A stretch of 22,560 nucleotides of DNA, from positions 1 to 22,560 of the IMG/VR virus record IMGVR_UViG_3300042540_000280; one strand, 5' to 3'. Positions 1,824 through 15,537 of the stretch are shown here, piece after piece; position 1 is the first letter of the stretch; each line of letters begins with the position of its first letter. The position numbers and the translations under genes are program-made. The notes beneath the pieces were generated by a model, which was not told the DNA's origin, did not search any database, and saw only the letters and a program-made list of their open reading frames with translations. This DNA is from a virus.

Positions 1824-2115
1824 CCACCAACCCCGCCACCTCGCTCATCGGCACCACCTCCACCTGCGCCATGATCTCAGGCGTCATGTAGGCGAACGCC
1901 TGCGCGAGAATCCCGCCCTCGCCGACCTCCGAGAGAACGTCGCCGCACAGCATCCAGCGACCGTCGCTCAACTGCCGACCCGCCGGAACGTGACGCGGAT
2001 CGCCATGCTCCTCCTGCACGCCGTACAGCGTGACGGCGACCTCGTAGGAGTAGACGAGCGCGAGGTCGCGGCACTCGGCGTAGGGCAGCGGGAGGGTGAG
2101 GTCAGAGAGCCACAT
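1801..2115 (-). CDS. Hypothetical protein, last gene of the late operon
   Basis: This 104-residue protein begins MWLSDLTLPLPYAECRDLAL. The start is the ATG at 2115, which overlaps the stop of the LamG gene as TGATG and has AAGGA just upstream. A longer frame to 2220 would run inside the LamG gene and is not needed. The sequence is acidic and mixed alpha/beta, has an internal DGRWMLCGDV segment, and lacks a membrane span or known motif. Its 3' end overlaps the integrase 3' end by 23 bp on the opposite strand. Being coupled to the adhesin gene, it could be a fibre chaperone or accessory protein, but that is position-based inference. Confidence 0.7.
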   Translation of the reverse strand: MWLSDLTLPLPYAECRDLALVYSYEVAVTLYGVQEEHGDPRHVPAGRQLSDGRWMLCGDVLSEVGEGGILAQAFAYMTPEIMAQVEVVPMSEVAGLVVSPPAES

Positions 2116-3806
2116 CACACGTTCCTTGAGAGGGCGGTTTGGAACGCCTGCATGGCGGTTCGGTAGGACGCCGCCTGCGCGGATGTCAGGCCCAGACCGA
2201 TTGAATAGGCCGCAATCCATGAGTTATGCCATCTGTCTACTGTGCCATTTCTATTTGCGGCGAAGACAGCAAAGGCGGCGGTCGAAGTAGCAGGCGTGAT
2301 CGTAGTCGTATTTGTGGCGACGACGCTGCCGTTGTGATAGTGCGTCAGCGAAGACGCCGACTCTCGCGACAAGATTCTGTGCCCTGCGGAGCCATGACCG
2401 TTCGCCGCAAGCGACTGCGATGCGCCCTGAAGTCCCCCGTAGTTCCCAATAACATTCGCCGTTGAGAACGAATCCGTCCCGAGATAGAACCGATTTGACG
2501 CTGTTGCGTCGTTCGCACCCATGTAGTAGCGGTTGGCGTCCACGCCGCTGCTCTGCCCGTGATACACAGACAGGTGGCCGCTAGAAGCAGTGCCCATGTC
2601 GTTCACCGACAGCCCGGTGTTCAGGTACTTGCTCGTCCCGTTCCCGGTCAGCCCGCCGCCTGCCCCCGTCTCGTTGTAGTCGCCGCTGACGAACGGCCCC
2701 ACGTTGGTGTCCACCGCGCCGCCGTACTTGATTCCAAGACTCGTCGGCCCGGTGTAGAGCGGAACGAGGCAGGCATTGAGCCCAGTGCCAGCAAACAGGT
2801 TCAAGCGGAAGAACCTGTCGCGGATACCGGCCGCGTCGATAGCGTCGCAGAACGCATTGACCGCGCTCGCCGTGCTGGCACTCACCGTGCCGCCGTTGCC
2901 ATAGACGCGGTCGATCCAATCCTGCGCATCTACGTTGCTGACGACCGGCGCACCAGCCAGCGCCACGCTCCACTTGCGCGCGAGGTAAAGTTCAACCCTT
3001 CGCCGCTCCCTGTCAGGAAGGTATCGCGAGTAGGCGATCACCTCTGCGATGCGACCGTTGAGAAAGACGGTTGGCGAGTTGATTCCCCCTGCCGCTTGGT
3101 TGTTTCGCCGCGCACCCAGCGTGATGTTAGACCAGCCGCCGCAGTTGAATCTGTTTGTCCCGGCCATCCCCCTTCCGCTGGCCCACGCCTGCTTGCGGAT
3201 CGCTGACGCAGTTGCAGAATGCGACAAGCACTGCGAGGCAACGTGCGGGACGTTCGCAGTGATGTCTCCGCCTGCACCGGAGCGGCCTTGAAGGTCTACG
3301 TTTGTAAACGAACGAGTTGTGTCTGCGGCGTAAGTCGGCAAGCCAGACGCTGCGACTTGAAGGCCAGCGATGTTGGCAAAGCCCGTCAGGTTCTGCGCCT
3401 GCGCGTTCGTTGTGTCTCCTCCATGGCTGAACTCATAAGTGATTCCGCCGGTCAGTGAGTTTTGCTGATGCACCGTCAGGATCGACAGGTCGTCCGAAGT
3501 CAGTCCCGGCTGTCTCCAGATGTTGTCGTCGGTGCCGTCGAAGTTCAGGCAGGGCTTGGACGAGATGCCGGTCAGGTTGAGCGTCGGCCTGCTGGCGGCG
3601 ATGCCTTGCGTGAGGTGTCGTCCGTTCCCACTCTTGTCCCCCCAGTACCCCACCGGATCGCTGGTCGCGGTGGCGGGAGCTGTGCCGTCGCTGTTCTGGA
3701 ACAGCGTGGACGAATCGCTCGCGTCCAGCCACAGCGCGAGGCCGCTGATCTGTCGCGGGTTGAATCCGCTGCTCGCCGGTCGGAGGGTGCGTGGGGAGAG
3801 GGGCAT
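2115..3806 (-). CDS. LamG-type (concanavalin A-like) phage adhesin / tail fibre protein
   Basis: This 563-residue protein contains a recognisable LamG-like jelly-roll. It opens near residue 20 with ISGLALWLDASD, continues with a W-x-D-K-S-G-N-G turn (about 55-62) and ASRPTLN (71-77), and closes with NGRIAEVIAYSRYLPDRE (250-267) followed by an amphipathic helix VELYLARKW. This form is common in phage and bacterial surface-binding proteins that recognise glycans. A second half, from about residue 290, starts DWIDRVYGNGG and has its own FFRLNLFAG and YLNTGLSV segments, suggesting a second lectin-like domain. The Ser/Thr/Asn/Gly-rich composition suits an exposed fibre. It overlaps the preceding small fibre-like gene as TGATG. 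It is probably a receptor-binding component; the glycan target is unknown. Confidence 0.75.
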   Translation of the reverse strand: MPLSPRTLRPASSGFNPRQISGLALWLDASDSSTLFQNSDGTAPATATSDPVGYWGDKSGNGRHLTQGIAASRPTLNLTGISSKPCLNFDGTDDNIWRQPGLTSDDLSILTVHQQNSLTGGITYEFSHGGDTTNAQAQNLTGFANIAGLQVAASGLPTYAADTTRSFTNVDLQGRSGAGGDITANVPHVASQCLSHSATASAIRKQAWASGRGMAGTNRFNCGGWSNITLGARRNNQAAGGINSPTVFLNGRIAEVIAYSRYLPDRERRRVELYLARKWSVALAGAPVVSNVDAQDWIDRVYGNGGTVSASTASAVNAFCDAIDAAGIRDRFFRLNLFAGTGLNACLVPLYTGPTSLGIKYGGAVDTNVGPFVSGDYNETGAGGGLTGNGTSKYLNTGLSVNDMGTASSGHLSVYHGQSSGVDANRYYMGANDATASNRFYLGTDSFSTANVIGNYGGLQGASQSLAANGHGSAGHRILSRESASSLTHYHNGSVVATNTTTITPATSTAAFAVFAANRNGTVDRWHNSWIAAYSIGLGLTSAQAASYRTAMQAFQTALSRNV

Positions 3807-6938: not shown

Positions 6939-7165
6939 GAGATGACTCCAGAGTGGCCGATGTCGACGCCGCGGGTCTTCAGCACCTTCGCCAGTGCGAA
7001 GCCGAGGCCGGTCTTCGTCCCCATCTCGCCAGCGCGGAATGCTGCCTTGATTTGGTCGCACTCACTGCGGACGTCATCCGGCAGTCGGTCGTACCAAGTC
7101 TGCGGCCCGCGGCTCGTCGGCAGCGCCGACCTCACCTCATCCACCAGGCTCTTCGCCTTCGCCAT
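6920..7165 (-). CDS. Small helix-turn-helix-like DNA-binding protein
   Basis: This 81-residue protein starts MAKAKSLVDEVRSALP at ATG 7165, with GGAGG just upstream and a TAATG overlap with the metallopeptidase gene. The middle has a W-Y-D-R-L-P-D-D-V motif (24-32) followed by an IKAAFRAGEMG helix. The C-terminus (LAKVLKTRGVDIGHSGVISWL) looks like a helix-turn-helix with the recognition helix near the end. I have the impression that this arrangement recurs in small phage DNA-binding proteins, but no family name is certain. The neighbouring metallophosphoesterase could use it as a DNA-targeting partner. A small-terminase role is not supported, because no large terminase is nearby. Confidence 0.65.
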   Translation of the reverse strand: MAKAKSLVDEVRSALPTSRGPQTWYDRLPDDVRSECDQIKAAFRAGEMGTKTGLGFALAKVLKTRGVDIGHSGVISWLERP

Positions 7166-7458
7166 TACTCCTCCGGTAGCTCGCGGAAGTTGAGCTTGAA
7201 GAGCACGCGAGCGATGTCCCTGGCGCTCACGGTGATGTGCTCCTCGCTCACGGTCGGAAAACACACATGGAGCAACTCGTGGATGATCGTCTCGCACTTC
7301 GGGCGACCCTTGAGCCGCGAGTCGATCAATAGCTTGCGTTCCAGATGCGGCGTCTTCGGGTCGGGGAGGTACGCCCAGCCGGCGGCGCGGCCTTTCAGCC
7401 GCGTGAAGCGGAGCAGCCACTTCTGGCCCGCCACGGTGAAATGGTGGTCGTCCGGCAT
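7165..7458 (-). CDS. Small HELLH zinc metallopeptidase-like protein
   Basis: This 97-residue protein contains ETIIHELLHVC with the zincin motif HExxH at residues 60-64 and possible third ligands at Glu72 or Glu73 (VSEEHI). It is much shorter than ImmA/IrrE repressor-cleaving proteases or SprT proteins and looks like a minimal zincin. The N-terminal half (KWLLRFTRLKGRAAGWAYL) is beta-rich and basic. The C-terminal helix (SARDIARVLFKLNF) would complete the fold. It is coupled to the HTH-like gene as TAATG. Proteolysis of a regulator or virion protein is plausible, but no target is visible. Confidence 0.65.
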   Translation of the reverse strand: MPDDHHFTVAGQKWLLRFTRLKGRAAGWAYLPDPKTPHLERKLLIDSRLKGRPKCETIIHELLHVCFPTVSEEHITVSARDIARVLFKLNFRELPEE

Positions 7459-7482: not shown

Positions 7483-7824
7483 TTAGGAGTCAAGGGTGGT
7501 TTTGCTGGCATCGCCGCCGCCGTTCGACCCTTCTGGCAGGCCGAGGTACTTGGCCCCCACGGCGTTCAAGGCTGCCTGCCTCGCCCTGCACCCGCAGTCG
7601 CCGCCGACTAGAGCGCTGACTCGATCTTTGGTGATTCCGACCGCCGACAGGCCGGCGGCGACCATGTCGCCAAGGCCGGGCCGTGGCTGCGGGTAGGCCG
7701 GGTGCGTCTCGTCCACCGTGATCGTGTCGCCGTCCTCGCTCACGATGCACGCACGCACGGCGTCGAGCGTGGTGCCACGCTGGCGGCAGCGGGCTTCAAG
7801 ATGACGGCGCTTGCAGATGATCAC
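7483..7824 (-). CDS. Hypothetical phage protein with CGC-x-x-RQ motif
   Basis: This 113-residue protein starts at GTG 7824, overlapping the cysteine-rich gene stop as GTGA. It begins MIICKRRHLEARCRQRG, has an acidic beta segment (EDGDTITVDETHPAYP, about 30-45) and a helical segment (LGDMVAAGLSAVGITKDRV). It then has CGCRARQAALN, which I think recurs in small proteins near phage tail genes. The C-terminus is Gly/Ser-rich. Function is unknown. A metal-binding Cys pair is possible (Cys76, Cys78, plus cysteines near the N-terminus). Position suggests a tail-tip or fibre accessory protein. Confidence 0.65.
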   Translation of the reverse strand: MIICKRRHLEARCRQRGTTLDAVRACIVSEDGDTITVDETHPAYPQPRPGLGDMVAAGLSAVGITKDRVSALVGGDCGCRARQAALNAVGAKYLGLPEGSNGGGDASKTTLDS

Positions 7825-9137
7825 GGTAGCGGGTTCTCTTCTCGCTCACACCCGAACCCAGGCTGGAGCGGAGCATAGTACGCCGGCTCGATTTCGATTG
7901 CGTTCATGCCGTTTAGGATCATTGTGTAGTACCGAAGTTCGGTTCGTTTCAGTAGTTCGCCCGTCTTGTCCTGCCAGTTTTCGTCGCAAGGCGTGAACAC
8001 AAACGCGCGATACTTGTAGACGGTGCCTGTTACGCTTGTGTAGCCGCCATCAATGCCGGTCAAGAAGTCGCCTATCTGGTTGTCGGCGCCCAAAAACGCG
8101 GCGTCTTGCCAGAGAATGATTCTGTACCCATCCTGAACGTACTGCAACGCTCTTTCGTGGTCGGCCCAGTTACAGTCTGTGCCATTTCCGTTGCAGTCGT
8201 CGATGCCGACGGGTATCTCCTCCGTCGTGAATCCCATCAGGCCGTTTGCGGCGATAAACGGGCGAGTGATGGACGAACGGGCGCCAATAAACGGAGATGC
8301 GCCCGGCGCAAAAAACGCGGCCCCCTCTCCCGCCCTGCTGCCGGTCTGTATTCGAGAAAGCGTTTGGCCGCCTGACCCCCCAAAAAGCAAAACCCCCTGG
8401 TACCCGATGCAATCTGAAAACCACGTTGCGTTGTCGCCTGCATAGCCGGGGTTTTCCTGATCGTGGCACGGCTCGCTGCATGGCCCCACGCACTCTCCGT
8501 CGCAGCAGATTTCGTCGGCCTCGCACGGCGGGTCGTCGCAGCACGGCTCGTCGGCGTCCTGGCAGACCCCGTTGCAGCACTCTTGGCCCTCAACGCACGG
8601 CGGGTTGCACGGCGGCGGCGGCGGCGGCGGCGGCACCGCGCAGCACTCGCACTCTTCCTCGGACTCCGGGTCTTTGCAGCACCAGCAGATCCGAACCTGC
8701 GCAACGCCGTATGGGCCGCCCACCTGCGCGTTCGTCGCCCTGAACGGCACTTTTGCCAGCCAATAGGCGTCGTCGTTTGGGTCGGTGATGATTTCGATTT
8801 CGTCCGTAATGTCGTGGTCGCCTTGGATAAAGCCGAGTTGTCCGCACACGGTTGTCGTAGCAACGCCCGCAATTGTGCCGAAGTCATCGAGCGCCGAGCC
8901 GTCTAGGAGTTTGGCGCGAATCTCGCTCTCGCCCACAACAACCTTGCAGAACCGCTCGATGAGGTGGCCCTCAAGAACCTGCCCAGCGCAATCCCCGACC
9001 GGCTGCCCCTCCCCGCACCCGCCGATGCCAGGGCATTCGTCATACCACTTCGCCGGCGGGACTGAGTCGTCATATGAATACGACACCGTGCGACAGCAAG
9101 GCTTGCAGCAGCACGCGCAGTTTGGAAGCATGATCAT
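7821..9137 (-). CDS. Cysteine-rich, polyproline-hinged tail/adsorption protein
   Basis: Starting at ATG 9137 (ATGA overlap with the preceding gene), this 438-residue protein has about 35 cysteines. The N-terminus carries CACCCKPCC (7-15). Residues 20-150 form a beta-rich domain. Cys pairs at 151-166 lead into eight consecutive prolines (169-176). The core at about 177-224 has 13 cysteines in repeated CCxGxC/CCDDPPC spacing, like disulfide knottins or metal-binding Cys-rich modules. The remaining 210 residues are beta-rich and Gly/aromatic-rich (LLFGGSGGQTLS, VQDGYRIILWQDAAFLG). No signal peptide is evident. Placement after the tape measure and tail genes suggests a tail-tip or receptor-binding role. 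The upstream in-frame extension to 9542 lies in another gene and is rejected. The family is not recognised. Confidence 0.72.
   Translation of the reverse strand: MIMLPNCACCCKPCCRTVSYSYDDSVPPAKWYDECPGIGGCGEGQPVGDCAGQVLEGHLIERFCKVVVGESEIRAKLLDGSALDDFGTIAGVATTTVCGQLGFIQGDHDITDEIEIITDPNDDAYWLAKVPFRATNAQVGGPYGVAQVRICWCCKDPESEEECECCAVPPPPPPPPCNPPCVEGQECCNGVCQDADEPCCDDPPCEADEICCDGECVGPCSEPCHDQENPGYAGDNATWFSDCIGYQGVLLFGGSGGQTLSRIQTGSRAGEGAAFFAPGASPFIGARSSITRPFIAANGLMGFTTEEIPVGIDDCNGNGTDCNWADHERALQYVQDGYRIILWQDAAFLGADNQIGDFLTGIDGGYTSVTGTVYKYRAFVFTPCDENWQDKTGELLKRTELRYYTMILNGMNAIEIEPAYYAPLQPGFGCEREENPLP
8611..8634. repeat. (GGC)8 trinucleotide tract
   Basis: Eight perfect GGC units on the plus strand encode the eight-proline run (residues 169-176) of the cysteine-rich protein on the minus strand. 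All eight prolines use CCG. Homocodon tracts can slip in replication and alter hinge length in whole codons without frameshift. Confidence 0.85.
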
Positions 9138-9505
9138 GCCTCGCTGCACTCCGCTGCGATCAGGTACCAGTACCCGTTCCCGCCGCGGGCCACGATCACC
9201 CACTTCCCCGTCGCGACGTTTGCGAACTTGTTCACGCAGTTTTCCAGGGTGTCCGCCGGCGTCTTCTTCCCCTCGCTCGGCGGCGTCCCCTCCTCGAAGA
9301 GCTCGATCGTCGCGAGCGTGTTTTTGTTCCATGCGGCCGTCGTCTTGCCTAGCTTGACGCGACCAGGCGGGCTCGGCATCCCCTGCAACCTCGTCGGCAC
9401 CTCCGCGCCGTTCTCCTTCATCGGAGTGCCTTTGACCAACGAGATCACTTCGTTGATCTCGTTGCGCTTGTTCGGCCCGACGAAGTAGCGTTCTGGGCGT
9501 GCCAT
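9134..9505 (-). CDS. Hypothetical tail-region protein
   Basis: This 123-residue protein starts MARPERYFVGPNKRNEINEV at ATG 9505, overlapping the stop of the 369-residue tail gene as TAATG, and ends overlapping the Cys-rich gene as ATGA. The sequence has a basic N-terminus, a Pro/Gly-rich middle (GMPSPPGRVKLG) and a beta-rich C-terminus (GKWVIVARGGNGYWYLIAAEC). It has no membrane or enzymatic motif. I do not recognise the family. Tight coupling on both sides places it with tail-tip or adsorption assembly. Confidence 0.68.
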   Translation of the reverse strand: MARPERYFVGPNKRNEINEVISLVKGTPMKENGAEVPTRLQGMPSPPGRVKLGKTTAAWNKNTLATIELFEEGTPPSEGKKTPADTLENCVNKFANVATGKWVIVARGGNGYWYLIAAECSEA

Positions 9506-10614
9506 TAGGTGAGCCGTAGGCCAAGGACTTCTGTGAAGTCAATCTCAGGGGCGACGCGGTAGCGTTCGATCAGCACTGGGTAGGCAAACTCGCCGTTGTC
9601 ACGAACGACCTTCCTGGGCGTGCCGCCGAAGTTGAGCGGGACGGGCTGCGCCGAGGGAATCTGCGATGCGCCGCCGTTCTCATACTCGAAGACCTTGACC
9701 ATCGCCCGCACCTTGTCGCCGGCGGCGACGTTGTCGAAGAGCGCCAGGGGCGTCACGATCTTGCCGCCGGAGTGCTTCAGCGGCTGGCCGAATGCGTCCT
9801 CATTGGCTGCGGCGCCTGCGGGGGCGAATGCCCTGACATTGAAGCCCGTCAGCGGCACGGCCATGTCCCATCCGATGTCTTGGTCTGTGTATCGCTGGCC
9901 GCCGTAGTGGATGTACGGGACTCTGTTTCGCCGGAACGCGAACTCGTAGGATGCCATCCATCCTCGCCAAATGCGGTTTCCGAACGCCTCGACATGGGGC
10001 TTGGTTTGGACGCCGCGAAACATCACCGACGCCCGCGTACACGACAAGCTGCCAAGTGTGAAGTCGTTGCTGTTGACTGATCCGGCGTGCATAACGTGCC
10101 GCGTTGGATCAAGCGGCTCGTACTGCTCGATGTTAATGGTGACGATCGGCTCGAGCCTGGTGACGCCGTCGTAGCGGTCGCCGACGGGATTCACGGCCGG
10201 GCCGGGGTCGTCCCACGCGGGCGAACCGTCGAAGTTGATCTGATACCACGCATAGACCGGCACCTCCATCAGCGAGGTGCTGGTCGTCCAGTTGGCCGGC
10301 CGGACGTCGGGCATCATGAGGCTGGGCTCCTGCCCGCCGCCCGACGTCTCCTTCGTCCCGTACTGGAACGTGCAGACGATGACCATGCGGCTTTCGCCTT
10401 CGTAGGCCGCCGAGAACGACTGACAGAAGATTTCGGTGTTCGACGGGTGCTGGTCGCCGATCTGGACGCCGCAGGCTCCCTGGATGTCCAAGGGTTCGCC
10501 GGCCTCTGCCATCATTACGCGGAAGACCCGCGTCTGCGAATCGGCGACGACTCCAGGCTGGCCTGACCTGGAGAACTGCTGGCCGCTTGAGACTTCGCTT
10601 ACCATCCGGGGCAT
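9505..10614 (-). CDS. Putative tail structural protein downstream of the tape measure
   Basis: This 369-residue protein starts at ATG 10614 behind GGAGGG in the end of the preceding gene, 3 bp downstream of that stop. It begins MPRMVSEVSSGQQFSRSG and is mixed beta with many aromatics (MEVPVYAWYQINFDGSP; WRGWMASYEFAFRRNRVP; RYTDQDIGWDMAVPL). This is typical of virion proteins. By gene order it is in the distal-tail or tail-tip slot. No known distal tail or baseplate motif is recognised, so the assignment rests on synteny. A non-structural alternative is unlikely given its position. Confidence 0.68.
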   Translation of the reverse strand: MPRMVSEVSSGQQFSRSGQPGVVADSQTRVFRVMMAEAGEPLDIQGACGVQIGDQHPSNTEIFCQSFSAAYEGESRMVIVCTFQYGTKETSGGGQEPSLMMPDVRPANWTTSTSLMEVPVYAWYQINFDGSPAWDDPGPAVNPVGDRYDGVTRLEPIVTINIEQYEPLDPTRHVMHAGSVNSNDFTLGSLSCTRASVMFRGVQTKPHVEAFGNRIWRGWMASYEFAFRRNRVPYIHYGGQRYTDQDIGWDMAVPLTGFNVRAFAPAGAAANEDAFGQPLKHSGGKIVTPLALFDNVAAGDKVRAMVKVFEYENGGASQIPSAQPVPLNFGGTPRKVVRDNGEFAYPVLIERYRVAPEIDFTEVLGLRLT

Positions 10615-11001: not shown

Positions 11002-14000
11002 TTAGTCAAACATTCCCGGCAGATTGCCGGTGTTTGCCTTCGCGATGGCGACCAGTTCACTGAGCGACGCGCTCTGCTTCTGGAGTTCCACGAGGTTCTG
11101 GTTGCGGGCCGAGTCGTCGCCCCGCAGGAGGCGGTTGAGTTCCGAGGCTCCCTGAACCGTCGAAACGTCGGTGGCCTGGAGTGCCGCCCGAGACGGGCCT
11201 TGGAGGACGGCGTTCTGCACCTCGTCGGCGAGGTTAAAGATGGCCGGGGCGGTTTGGCGCTGGGCTTCTTCGACCGCGCGGCGCTGGGCGGGGGCGGCGT
11301 TATCTAAGAACTCCCGCGCGCCGCCGTTGAATGTGCGCTGTATGTCGTTAATCGTCCGCGCAAGCTCTTCGCCGGCTCGCTGGGCTGGAGTCTTCCTGGC
11401 TTGAAAGCCTCGCTCTTGCGCCTGCCGGCGCCGCTCCTCGAAGTTGCTGGCGTCACGGGCGTTGCGAACGGCGGGGTCGTTGTCAACGGCCCGCTGGACG
11501 GCGGCGTCATTTTCAGCGCGGAGCCGCTCGCGCTCGGCAATCAAATCGTTCCGCTGGCCTTGATTCAGGACATCCTTGCCATTTAGCTGGCTGTCGATTT
11601 CAGCAATCCTGCCCTCGCGGCGGCGAATTCCCTCGTCCTGCCTTGCCCGTTCTTCGGCGAGTGCCGTCTCGCGGCGAACATTGTCCCTTAAAACCCGCTG
11701 CGACTCGAGGTCTCGCTCTGCGCGAGCCCGCTCCGGGGACGGGTTACCCCGCGGGACTCTCCTCTCAAGGTCGTCGCCACGCGCTTGGTCGGCGGCAGCC
11801 TGGGCCGACTGGAAGTTGCTCTCGGCCTCCTGTCGAACCCTGTCGAACGCCGACGCGAAGAGTTCGACGGATCGTCGAGCGGCGTCGATTGCCTTGATCT
11901 CGCGGTCGCGGGCGCTAATGGCGTCAGATACCGCTTTGATTTCTGTCTGCGCCGAAGACTGCGCCGCGTTCCGCTCTTGTGGGTCTTCGATTTTTGCCGC
12001 GTCAACGAGTTGGTCGCGTGCTGCGCGAAGCCTGGCGCCGAGCGAATCAAGGTCGTTCTCCAACTTGCGAGCCCCTGGGACACCCTGATCAAACGCCTTG
12101 GCGGCTTCATTCTGCCCCTTGGCTATAAGCTCGCTCGCATTGTTGATGGACTGGGCTGCGCGGATGAAAGACTCGTCATTTAGCTGTGACAGTGATCTGT
12201 CGAGAAGCGAAAGCTGGCTTCTCAGCTTCTCAAGTTCGCCAGATAGGTCGATCCTGTCGGATGCCCCGAATGGCCCTCGCGGCTGAATGGCGCCGACCGA
12301 CGACAGCTGGCCTCTTACTATATTGCGGCGCTGTAGGATGTCGCCGAAAGTATCTCCTTCGTTGACCCTCCTGGCGTCCTGCTCAAGAAGCGTCTGCCGT
12401 GCAAGCCGCGACCGATCCCTGAATGGCGACCCTGCCGCAAGCTCGTTGGCTCGGCGCAGCCTGGCCGCCGTGTCTTGCAGTAGCTGGCGAGTTTGATCCG
12501 CCGTTGGCGCTGGCGTGTCGGCGATCGACTTGCGAACCCTGATCCTTGCTGCCTCAAGGTCGCCCAAGGAGGTTCTCAGGAACTCAGCTCTGGCGCTATT
12601 GGTTTCCGTCTTCAATGACTCAGCGACGACTGACTTCCTCGCCTCGACGTCCAACGACCTTGGGTCGGTCGCAGCCGCTGCGTCGGCTCTTGCTTCAGCG
12701 GATTCTCTCCGCAATTTTGCGATTTCTTCGGCGAACTGCCTGGCGTCTCGTCCAGCATTTGAAAAGACGTCGCCGGCCAGCCCTCTTCCGAGAGACTCCA
12801 GGGCAGATCGGAGCCCCTCGGCAACCGTTCGCTGCTTCTCCAGGGCAGAGGTAAGTGCATTTGCTTGAATCTCTGTTGTCTTGCCTGAGTTGGCCCACTT
12901 GATGTACGCGACGATGAGCTGCCCAGTGATCGCCGCAGATACGCCAGCGATGAGCCCTGTAGTTCCTCCGAGGACGAAGCCCAACTGGGAGATATTGTTG
13001 CCGGCGGCGCGGATTCGCTGGTCAAGGCCGCCCGTGACGCTGAAGAAGTCATCGATGGCGAAGACGGCCTGCTGGACGCCGAGGCCGATGTTGCCGAAGG
13101 CACCGCGGCCGATGTCGCCGGCACGCTGGAATTGGCGATTGAGCCTATCTGGCGAGATGCCCGCGGCAGCGGCGGCGGCCCGTATGGCGTCTTGGGCAAC
13201 GCCATTGATCTGACGCCTCGTCTGCTCGAGGTCGATCGTGCCGCTGTCGGCCGCTGTGGCTATCGCCGTGCGGAGCCTGTTGAAGGCATCCAGCGCAGGC
13301 CCTCGCGCCTGCGTCGAGACGCCGGAGAGAGTCCGTTGCAGAACCTGTAGCTGCGCGGTGTACCCTTGCAGCGACTGAGCCTGAAGTCCGAACTCGAGGC
13401 CGCGGCGACCTGCGCCGCCGAACTGCTGTCCGAAGTCAAGCGCCCGCTGCGACCGTGCGACGCGCTGCTCAAAACGCTCGGCCTCGTTGGCGGCGTTTCT
13501 GATCTGGGCGGCCGTGGCCCCGAACCCCTGTCGGGCCAGGGTTGACGCCTGGTCGGTCGCTCTCTGGAGGGCGGGGATCAATGCCGTCCGCAGCGGGTCG
13601 GGGAGCGTGTCGAGTTGCTGGCGAGCGGCGGTGACGCGGTTGATGACGTTGTCGACCTGGCGGCCGACCTCAAGCTGACCTCCCAAAGGCCCGGCGCCGC
13701 CGGGGATGTCGCCGCCCATCCGCGAGCGGGCCTGACGCTCAAGGTCGCCTGCGGTGTCGATTGGCGTGGCTCGCTGAGAGAAACGGCCCTGGGCCTCGGC
13801 GATCTCAGCATCCCGCCGGCGGCGTTCCTCTTCCTGCCTGAGCCTGAGCAGGTCGCCGACCGGCGTGGCCCGTCTGGAGAACTGGCCTTCTGCGGCAGCG
13901 ATTTCGGCATCCCGCCGGCGGCGTTCCTCTTCCTGCCTGAGCCTGAGCAGGTCGCCGACCGGAGTGGCTCGCCTGGAGAACTGGCCTTCTGCGGCAGCGA

Positions 14001-14883
14001 TTTCGGCGTCTCTTTGTCGGATCGCTTCAGCCGCCGCGGGCGCCGCCACTGCGGCGTCAAGAGACTCCGAAAGCTCGCCTGACCGCCTGATCAGCCGAGT
14101 AAGCCTCTGCTCCGCTGCCGCCGTGTCGATGTTCAGGATGCGGCGACTCTCGATGGTTGCCTGAACACGCTGGATCAGGTCATCAAGCCTCGCCAATTGC
14201 TGAACAGACCGGCCCACAGACCCGTCGTCAAGGACGCTCGCAGCCGCGCCCTGCGCCCGATTTCTTGCCGCCGCCGAAGCGGCCAGCGAGTCCCTGACTC
14301 GCGGGGCGACGAACGCCAGTTCACGCCCCCGCGGCCCGCTGCCTGCGATTGCCGACGCCTCCGCCAGCCTGTCGGCGGCCTGCGCTGCCTGCTCGGCCTT
14401 GAGGCGGATACGCTCAAAGCTCCTCTCGCCAACAGTGCCACCGCGATTCAGCACAGCCGACAAGTTCTCGGCGCTTCGCTGGGCCGACCTCATGGCGGGC
14501 TCGAAGGCCGTCTGGACGCTGGCCGAAAGGCGCTCCACCGTCCTCGCTGCGGCGCCCAGCGGCTGGTTGACCTCAGAGGCCGCTCGCTGAATCCTCTTGA
14601 ACTGCTCGACCGCCTGAGTCAGCGACGCGAAGGTGGATGTGTCGAACCCCTTGAACGACAGCCGCTGCGACGCGACAGCCTGAAGGGCGCGTGATACCTT
14701 CTGAGACTCGGTGTAGATGCCCCGAAGAGAAGTCGCCGCAGACCGCTCTGCCGACTTGAGCGACGACTCCATCGCCGACGCGAACGAGCGAACCTCCTTC
14801 GCCGACGCATTCAACTTGCTGTTGAAGTCGGAGGTGTTCGCCGTTACCAGCGCCGAGATTTTGCCGAGATACGCTTTTGCCAT
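11002..14883 (-). CDS. Tail tape measure protein
   Basis: This 1293-residue protein is by far the largest in the window and directly follows the G/G-T chaperones, the standard siphovirus place for the tape measure. It starts MAKAYLGKISALVTANTSDFN and is dominated by Ala/Arg/Glu/Gln-rich helix and coiled coil. A hydrophobic patch (about 625-660, including GLIAGVSAAITG) is typical of tape measures that insert into the host envelope. At the family rule of about 0.15 nm per residue it would specify a tail of roughly 190 nm. Residues 293-384 hold a tandem 33-residue repeat. The ATG at 14883 has AAGGA about 7 nt upstream and lies 4 bp after the chaperone stop. No peptidase or muramidase domain is apparent. 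Confidence 0.93.
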   Translation of the reverse strand: MAKAYLGKISALVTANTSDFNSKLNASAKEVRSFASAMESSLKSAERSAATSLRGIYTESQKVSRALQAVASQRLSFKGFDTSTFASLTQAVEQFKRIQRAASEVNQPLGAAARTVERLSASVQTAFEPAMRSAQRSAENLSAVLNRGGTVGERSFERIRLKAEQAAQAADRLAEASAIAGSGPRGRELAFVAPRVRDSLAASAAARNRAQGAAASVLDDGSVGRSVQQLARLDDLIQRVQATIESRRILNIDTAAAEQRLTRLIRRSGELSESLDAAVAAPAAAEAIRQRDAEIAAAEGQFSRRATPVGDLLRLRQEEERRRRDAEIAAAEGQFSRRATPVGDLLRLRQEEERRRRDAEIAEAQGRFSQRATPIDTAGDLERQARSRMGGDIPGGAGPLGGQLEVGRQVDNVINRVTAARQQLDTLPDPLRTALIPALQRATDQASTLARQGFGATAAQIRNAANEAERFEQRVARSQRALDFGQQFGGAGRRGLEFGLQAQSLQGYTAQLQVLQRTLSGVSTQARGPALDAFNRLRTAIATAADSGTIDLEQTRRQINGVAQDAIRAAAAAAGISPDRLNRQFQRAGDIGRGAFGNIGLGVQQAVFAIDDFFSVTGGLDQRIRAAGNNISQLGFVLGGTTGLIAGVSAAITGQLIVAYIKWANSGKTTEIQANALTSALEKQRTVAEGLRSALESLGRGLAGDVFSNAGRDARQFAEEIAKLRRESAEARADAAAATDPRSLDVEARKSVVAESLKTETNSARAEFLRTSLGDLEAARIRVRKSIADTPAPTADQTRQLLQDTAARLRRANELAAGSPFRDRSRLARQTLLEQDARRVNEGDTFGDILQRRNIVRGQLSSVGAIQPRGPFGASDRIDLSGELEKLRSQLSLLDRSLSQLNDESFIRAAQSINNASELIAKGQNEAAKAFDQGVPGARKLENDLDSLGARLRAARDQLVDAAKIEDPQERNAAQSSAQTEIKAVSDAISARDREIKAIDAARRSVELFASAFDRVRQEAESNFQSAQAAADQARGDDLERRVPRGNPSPERARAERDLESQRVLRDNVRRETALAEERARQDEGIRRREGRIAEIDSQLNGKDVLNQGQRNDLIAERERLRAENDAAVQRAVDNDPAVRNARDASNFEERRRQAQERGFQARKTPAQRAGEELARTINDIQRTFNGGAREFLDNAAPAQRRAVEEAQRQTAPAIFNLADEVQNAVLQGPSRAALQATDVSTVQGASELNRLLRGDDSARNQNLVELQKQSASLSELVAIAKANTGNLPGMFD
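13732..14007 (-). repeat. Tandem 99-bp repeat in the tape measure gene
   Basis: Two full 99-bp units (14007-13909 and 13908-13810) encode the same 33 residues (AEIAAAEGQFSRRATPVG...). They differ at only 3 bases, all silent. A diverged third copy of about 26 residues follows (AEIAEAQGRFSQRATPI). Each unit adds 33 helical residues, so unit gain or loss would change tail length in frame. Confidence 0.9.
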
Positions 14884-14887
14884 CGCC

Positions 14888-15202
14888 TCATCCTTGAGGT
14901 GCCTGGAGCTTCATCAGCTCGGCGAAAATCTGGTCGTTCGTCTGCTCTGGTTTGATCGCTCGGGGGATGAACACCGACTCTTCGGGGATGTCCTTACGCT
15001 TGTAGTTGCCGGAGGAGGCCATGATGATCCGGCATATCCTCGCGGTCTGAGCCCAATGGTCGGGGAGTGGATACCGCTGGTCGAAGGCGTACCACTCCGC
15101 GATCTCTTCGCTGTCAACCTCCTGTAGCAACCTCTTGACCGACATCCCCAGGCACAGGGCCAAGCGGAGGTAGAACCTCCGCTCGGGCCTGTCGGTCATC
15201 AT
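14888..15202 (-). CDS. Tail assembly chaperone T part (G-T frameshift extension)
   Basis: From ATG 15202 this encodes 104 residues (MMTDRPERRFYLRLALC ... DQIFAELMKLQAPQG), which fits the family of phage T-type tail chaperone domains (the stretch EIAEWYAFDQRYPLPDHW is characteristic of this slot). In the frameshifted product the frame is entered earlier, through GGG-AAA-AGA at 15211-15203, adding one Arg before the first Met. The fused protein would be about 216 residues (111 from G plus 105). T domains bind the tape measure and recruit tail tube subunits during assembly. It lies immediately upstream of the tape measure, as in lambda-like phages. It could also be made independently by ATGA coupling. 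Confidence 0.82.
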   Translation of the reverse strand: MMTDRPERRFYLRLALCLGMSVKRLLQEVDSEEIAEWYAFDQRYPLPDHWAQTARICRIIMASSGNYKRKDIPEESVFIPRAIKPEQTNDQIFAELMKLQAPQG

Positions 15203-15537
15203 TCTTTTCCCAGGTTCTCCACGGCCTCCTGCGTGAAGGCGTTGATCTTCCACGCCGTCTCGAAGACGCGGTTGAGGACGACGCTCGACTTCTTGCCGAG
15301 TTCCTTGGCGTCCTCGTCCTTGAAGAGCCGGTCGCCCTTCTCGTCGCAGAGGCACAGCACGAGGAACCGAACGCGGAACGACTTCATCTTCTGTTCCGCG
15401 TAGGAGTCCTCGAAGGCGTCGCGGTCGGTGCCGCTGATGATCTTGATGTAGTAGTCGCCGCCCCACTCGGGGATCGCCACCTTCTCGATCTTGATGTCGT
15501 CGGCGGCGAGGATGCGGCTGCGGAGGTCGAGGGCCAT
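15199..15537 (-). CDS. Tail assembly chaperone G-like protein
   Basis: This 112-residue protein starts MALDLRSRILAADDIKIEKV at ATG 15537, with GGAG upstream. It contains VAIPEWGGDYYIKIISG and a helical DAFEDSYAEQ segment, the pattern of phage tail assembly chaperones that sit between the tail tube and tape measure genes. It folds around the tape measure during tail assembly and is usually absent from the virion. The last codons contain the -1 slippery heptamer, so a fraction of ribosomes should make the G-T fusion. Product ratio is normally set by slip efficiency. The two functions are read jointly from motif, position and frameshift site. Confidence 0.85.
   Translation of the reverse strand: MALDLRSRILAADDIKIEKVAIPEWGGDYYIKIISGTDRDAFEDSYAEQKMKSFRVRFLVLCLCDEKGDRLFKDEDAKELGKKSSVVLNRVFETAWKINAFTQEAVENLGKE
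15205..15211 (-). promoter_or_regulatory. -1 frameshift slippery heptamer GGGAAAA
   Basis: At the end of the G gene, the zero-frame codons CTG-GGA-AAA-GAA-TGA contain G-GGA-AAA. This is the canonical X-XXY-YYZ arrangement, and the stop follows two codons later. Slipping back one base reads GGG-AAA-AGA-ATG-ATG straight into the T frame. Lambda uses the closely related G-GGA-AAG at the same place. The reading phase was checked base by base. Confidence 0.85.

Follow-up and report, generated by a model that had tools for sequence, protein, structure and literature searches.

The cysteine-rich protein encoded at positions 7821-9137 of the window (the whole stretch of viral DNA that was analysed, 22,560 bases) is one of many that fill an exchangeable slot whose ends are conserved, a point that goes beyond the first-pass annotation of this DNA. 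The slot has a fixed place between two conserved genes, designated here UP (upstream partner) and DN (downstream conserved gene), and in 142 complete distinct loci of IMG/VR it holds a cysteine-rich protein. The slot protein is probably an exchangeable distal-tail component of a siphophage-type tail, and most likely a disulfide-stabilised receptor-binding part seated on UP.

The translation of 7821-9137 (minus strand) contains 438 amino acids without internal stops. Its 35 cysteines (8.0%) agree with the earlier estimate of about 35, and the reported CC pairs (CC steps at residues 9, 10, 14, 153, 165, 187, 199, and 211) and the run of eight prolines (P168-P175) are also present as described. 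With an assumed background of 1.2% such a content has a binomial P of ~4e-18, and the other genes of the window contain 0-4.4% cysteine; 19 of the 35 cysteines lie in residues 140-230. Identical copies of the protein occur in IMGVR 3300034101_002383 and 3300034062_002216. The ATG start at 9137 and the TGA that ends the upstream gene overlap as ATGA, and because most of the long-form relatives have the same arrangement the coordinates are considered correct. An alternative start at TTG 9542, which gives a long upstream extension of the frame, was rejected, since it overlaps the conserved upstream gene and the relatives start at or near the stop of that gene. The gene is divided as follows.

7821..9137, minus strand: cysteine-rich slot protein, 438 aa, 35 Cys, from the ORF translation
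9093..9137, minus strand: short-form N-terminal adaptor with Cys cluster, MIMLPNCACCCKPCC, residues 1-15; M[VIL]L[LM]P-x-CxCC form, as in L011, L013, L144, L259, and others
8643..9092, minus strand: domain A, residues 16-165, predicted beta-sandwich; common to L259, L330, and L246
8613..8636, minus strand: poly-proline hinge (residues 168-175), encoded by eight CCG codons; L259 and L330 have proline runs in the corresponding position
8466..8609, minus strand: Cys-dense region, residues 177-224; two imperfect PPC...CC-x-G-x-C units by sequence
7836..8465, minus strand: C-terminal body, residues 225-434; no relative found, pLDDT <50
7824..7835, minus strand: conserved C-terminal tetrapeptide NPLP; synonymous codon variation among relatives

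The minus-strand block to which the gene belongs includes, in order, the major capsid protein (PF05065), head-tail adaptor Ad1, head closure Hc1, tail terminator, and tail assembly chaperone, and continues with a 1293-aa probable tape measure, a 122-aa protein, a 369-aa protein, the 123-aa UP, the cysteine-rich protein, and the 113-aa DN, past which nucleic-acid metabolism genes (exonuclease, dCMP deaminase, and dNMP kinase) are found. Three genes lie between the probable tape measure and the cysteine-rich gene, which thereby has the tail-block position of a modular receptor-binding protein, the tape measure being assigned by size and position. The relevant features of the window, together with two further reading frames observed in it, are listed below.

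15199-15537: tail chaperone, just upstream of the tape measure
11002..14883, minus strand: 1293-aa protein, probably the tape measure as judged from size and position only
9505..10614, minus strand: conserved 369-aa tail-block protein, found in 27 viral loci
9134..9505, minus strand: UP, 123 aa, with a C-terminal-side Cys in WYLIAAEC; probable adaptor socket
7483..7824, minus strand: DN, 113 aa; its GTG start overlaps the slot TGA (GTGA)
7165-7458: 97-aa protein whose IHELLH motif looks metallopeptidase-like by eye; Pfam and PHROGs gave no hit
2115-3806: possible second fibre, 563 aa, with a hit to a PHROG virion structural protein (1e-27)
954-1823: integrase

In nearly all readable loci among the 27 reached via the 369-aa neighbour, the gene after UP encodes an N-terminal Cys cluster, and the protein usually differs between loci; four slot proteins from this set have only the first ~27 residues in common. 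The set was enlarged by the motif DGKVG-x4-CCC, by DN scans, and by two further N-terminal patterns to 162 distinct slot proteins, 161 of which contain the N-terminal cluster; several of these scans used the Cys motif as their query and the final extraction favoured frames with such a cluster, so that the neighbour-led sets give the best measure of how common it is, and there it is near-universal. The 142 complete proteins have a median cysteine content of 7.2% and a length of 105-1972 aa, and form 63 body clusters. Among the 327 collected sequences, some of which overlap one another, the UP family was detected in 300 and the DN family (pattern RCRQRGYTLDEVRPCIV...GLGDMVAAGLSAVGIT...DCGC) in 248. 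The opposite end of the slot protein is conserved as well: about half of the members carry a C-terminal NPLP or N[EP]FP, and 53 end in LP and 23 in FP (mostly NPLP or NEFP) across unrelated bodies. The codons of NPLP vary synonymously, except the last one, where the start of DN overlaps.

Several members have an unusual composition. L040 (8424-10676) has a tandem pair of Cys-rich ORFs (Cys content 6.9% and 10.9%) that share GACC-type repeats and are ~37% identical over 101 aa. Two very long proteins, L029 (8452-14349, 1965 aa) and L039 (8482-14400, 1972 aa), show RCC1-like and GSGYTSAP-type repeats by eye and have only CC in the N-terminal cluster, and a Pfam search with L029 gave no match. 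In L010 (9104-9838) and L015 (9095-9865) UP carries an additional Ser-rich region and a run of seven prolines, and in L032 (8512-10581) and L042 (8385-8796) a hydrophobic stretch (LPLWAAFLFAAGMYPIGLIFGCSPCC) precedes the Cys cluster, unlike in the other members seen.

Most slot proteins carry the Cys cluster behind one of two short N-terminal adaptors, the long form being MTLITFQDGKPVLRDGKVGTEQ-x-CCC and the short form M[VIL]L[LM]P-x-CxCC. The window protein (MIMLPNCACC) is of the short form, and some proteins (e.g., L009, L023, and L182), a minority, have neither. The adaptor type is matched to the partner: all 43 short adaptors, with L196 counted here by inspection, stand behind a UP with AAEC near its end, and the 73 long adaptors whose UP is classifiable all stand behind one with W-x-x-x-T-C near its end, with no mismatches. 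This matching could arise from simple linkage, the breakpoints falling at the Cys cluster.

Behind the adaptor whole bodies are exchanged, and in both directions. When locus pairs with UP at least 90% identical were compared, the bodies were unrelated in 47 of 71, and in the reverse case 22 pairs with bodies at least 80% identical had UP proteins less than 50% identical or unrelated; L196 (short adaptor) and L216 (long adaptor) have bodies 93.5% identical. Such two-way exchange of body and UP is the pattern expected of host-range genes. Within the window protein domain A shows 55-58% identity to L259 and L330 and 25% to L246, a long-adaptor protein, and L259 keeps almost all of the cysteines of residues 1-166 of the window protein. 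The C-terminal half of the window protein is not common to these three relatives: past the hinge L259 has a different C-terminal half related to L314 (42%) and L251 (34%), whose N-terminal domains are other than domain A, which indicates that recombination takes place also near the hinge. Relatives in other phages were found for the slot and for domain A, and not for the C-terminal body (residues 225-434).

The replacement of the body, with both ends still recognisable, suggests an exchangeable, disulfide-hardened part for host recognition, and the fixed tail-block position, the short anchor matched to UP, and the wholesale exchange of bodies are together what is expected of a receptor-binding component. 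According to this model the N-terminal adaptor with its Cys cluster would dock on the 123-aa UP, whose C-terminus bears a near-invariant Cys, and the body (domain A, Pro/Cys hinge, and variable C-terminal part) would reach the host surface, while the conserved NPLP may serve in docking or assembly. The cysteines would be oxidised to disulfides after the particle has left the reducing cytoplasm, and host recognition would change when recombination sets a new body between the two conserved ends. It counts against the receptor-binding reading that the 369-aa and 123-aa neighbours have no assigned function, and, given the candidate fibre at 2115-3806, the cysteine-rich protein need not be the main receptor binder. 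A bolder version of the model, which we regard as rather unlikely, is an undescribed class of exchangeable tail-tip proteins, where the N-terminal CxCC/CCC plug would be held to the C-terminal Cys of UP through a disulfide between the two proteins or a metal site that they share and so act as a universal coupling for any disulfide-rich body.

The chemistry of the cysteines was left between disulfides and metal in the first-pass annotation, and of these extracellular disulfides stay the best reading, metal having lost ground. In 86 pairs of slot proteins at 25-70% identity, not fully independent of one another, cysteine is conserved best of all residues when the N-terminal module is set aside (70%, compared with 54% for Gly and 51% for Trp). 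The CxxC spacing in the bodies is only 1.2-fold above that of shuffled sequence and histidine makes up 0.85% of residues, which fits extracellular disulfides better than metal sites. These values weigh against a tail-associated protein whose Cys clusters, at least the N-terminal CxCC/CCC, bind zinc or an iron-sulfur cluster and in which metal instead of disulfides gives the structure, and profile searches revealed no match to a metal-binding family. The bodies show little sign of metal ligands; a metal site confined to the N-terminal CxCC/CCC is conceivable, where closely spaced cysteines are present in nearly all members, the near-invariant C-terminal Cys of UP could complete a four-Cys site, and the tail-tip proteins of lambda gpL type carry an iron-sulfur cluster. 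Taken together, metal binding is held to be an improbable explanation. A signal from odd cysteine counts, which would have pointed to disulfides plus one free thiol, is unconfirmed: it was seen in the set where it was first noticed (42 odd versus 6 even body clusters; 29:3 among long forms), it was not replicated in the newly fetched loci (15:12), and the overall 47 of 63 body clusters is driven by the first sample.

The earlier statement that phage proteins are rarely so rich in cysteine needs qualifying, since in Agrobacterium phage Milano, whose structural proteins contain 2.1% Cys on average, tail and baseplate are linked by a network of disulfides, a precedent for such networks in phage tails and receptor-binding attachments (PMC10811340). 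The slot resembles Milano, where the cysteines are oxidised in the particle, in having a Cys-rich tail-region protein and differs from it in the concentration of cysteine in one hypervariable protein (median 7.2%), and in the tail, which is contractile in Milano, no sheath gene being identified in the window.

The 438-aa protein has no match in Pfam, PHROGs, or NCBIfam, in accordance with the first impression that it belongs to no described family, and it has no significant match among sequences of solved structures (PDB); named-phage and plasmid collections gave one insignificant hit and nothing else. A Pfam/NCBIfam hit of domain A to CitF was far below the cut-off and was rejected. Residues 177-224 show the C...CC-x-G-x-C spacing of Stig1-like, granulin-like, and knottin repeats; unlike those families, they match no curated profile or solved structure (no Pfam match even at E 10, and one chance-level PDB hit to ADAMTS-4, E 0.32). 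The resemblance to knottin, Stig1, or ADAMTS proteins is thus at chance level in profile and PDB searches, which gave no sequence support for the suggested knottin-like pattern. Of the two beta-rich domains proposed originally one is retained: AlphaFold2 with four sequences predicts a beta-sandwich for residues ~51-165 (block-wise pLDDT mostly 63-91), and beyond residue 200 nothing is reliable (pLDDT <50), so that the C-terminal part has no model. The best PDB fold matches to the model, CBM35 (E 0.02) and, with worse values, GH2-type enzymes, are not significant. The model of the 369-aa neighbour gave no PDB match and structural matches to uncharacterised Caudovirales proteins only.

No homology or fold match to known receptor-binding or tail-tip proteins was obtained for the slot protein, whose C-terminal body lacks a usable model; the tail-tip receptor binder proposed at first is nevertheless the best reading, in view of the tail-block slot and the swapped bodies. 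A published counterpart of the slot system was not found in the open-access literature. The motif DGKVG-x4-CCC occurs in 96 viral stretches and gave four chance-like hits among 84,980 prokaryote genomes, and scans of prokaryote genome contigs for the host with neighbour proteins and motifs yielded only chance-like pattern hits; a planctomycete host is no more than a guess from similar sequence motifs.

The orphan bodies and their rapid exchange would fit accessory genes too, so that the product might be a non-virion accessory or surface protein (e.g., a superinfection exclusion or anti-host factor) encoded within the tail block, and the hydrophobic N-terminal stretch of L032 and L042 is in line with this; it was, however, noticed in these two relatives only. 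The gene occupies the same place with overlapping start and stop codons in essentially all loci, in the manner of a core gene whose body varies, and the adaptor type tracks the neighbouring gene product; an accessory role is considered improbable. A system similar to ribosomally made modified peptides, with a conserved leader (MTLITFQDGKPVLRDGKVGTEQ) and a Cys-rich variable core, is very improbable: the leader-like N-terminal module, the CCC at the core start, and the extreme core variation recall it, but the cores reach 1972 aa, conservation is found at both ends, the MTLITFQDGKPVLRDGKVGTEQ leader is missing from the window protein, and no modification enzyme was identified adjoining the slot.

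Modular receptor-binding proteins and tail fibres of phages consist of a conserved N-terminal anchor and an exchangeable C-terminal part. The slot shares with them the conserved N-terminal module, the exchanged unrelated bodies, and the position after the probable tape measure. It differs in that the anchor is only ~10-30 residues and ends in a Cys cluster, the C-terminal tetrapeptide is conserved too, and the bodies are Cys-rich and have no sequence relation found to described families. Polymorphic toxin systems (PMC3482391) likewise have a conserved N-terminal part and C-terminal modules swapped by recombination; unlike them the slot has no identified toxin domain, immunity gene, or export signal and lies in a phage structural block, DN is conserved and not replaced along with the bodies, and toxin profiles gave no hit in the window protein or in the ORFs of eight relatives. 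In DGR systems point variation arises from a template repeat and a reverse transcriptase, and the whole-body replacement in the slot is of a different kind.

If the preferred reading of the slot protein as an exchangeable receptor-binding part is true, widespread uncultured phages, represented by well over a hundred loci, would swap Cys-rich recognition parts via a standard short coupling, and the Cys-cluster adaptor between two conserved genes would be a sequence handle for host-range determinants in metagenomic phages. It would also make testable how a protein with 35 cysteines stays soluble in the reducing cytoplasm and is oxidised later.
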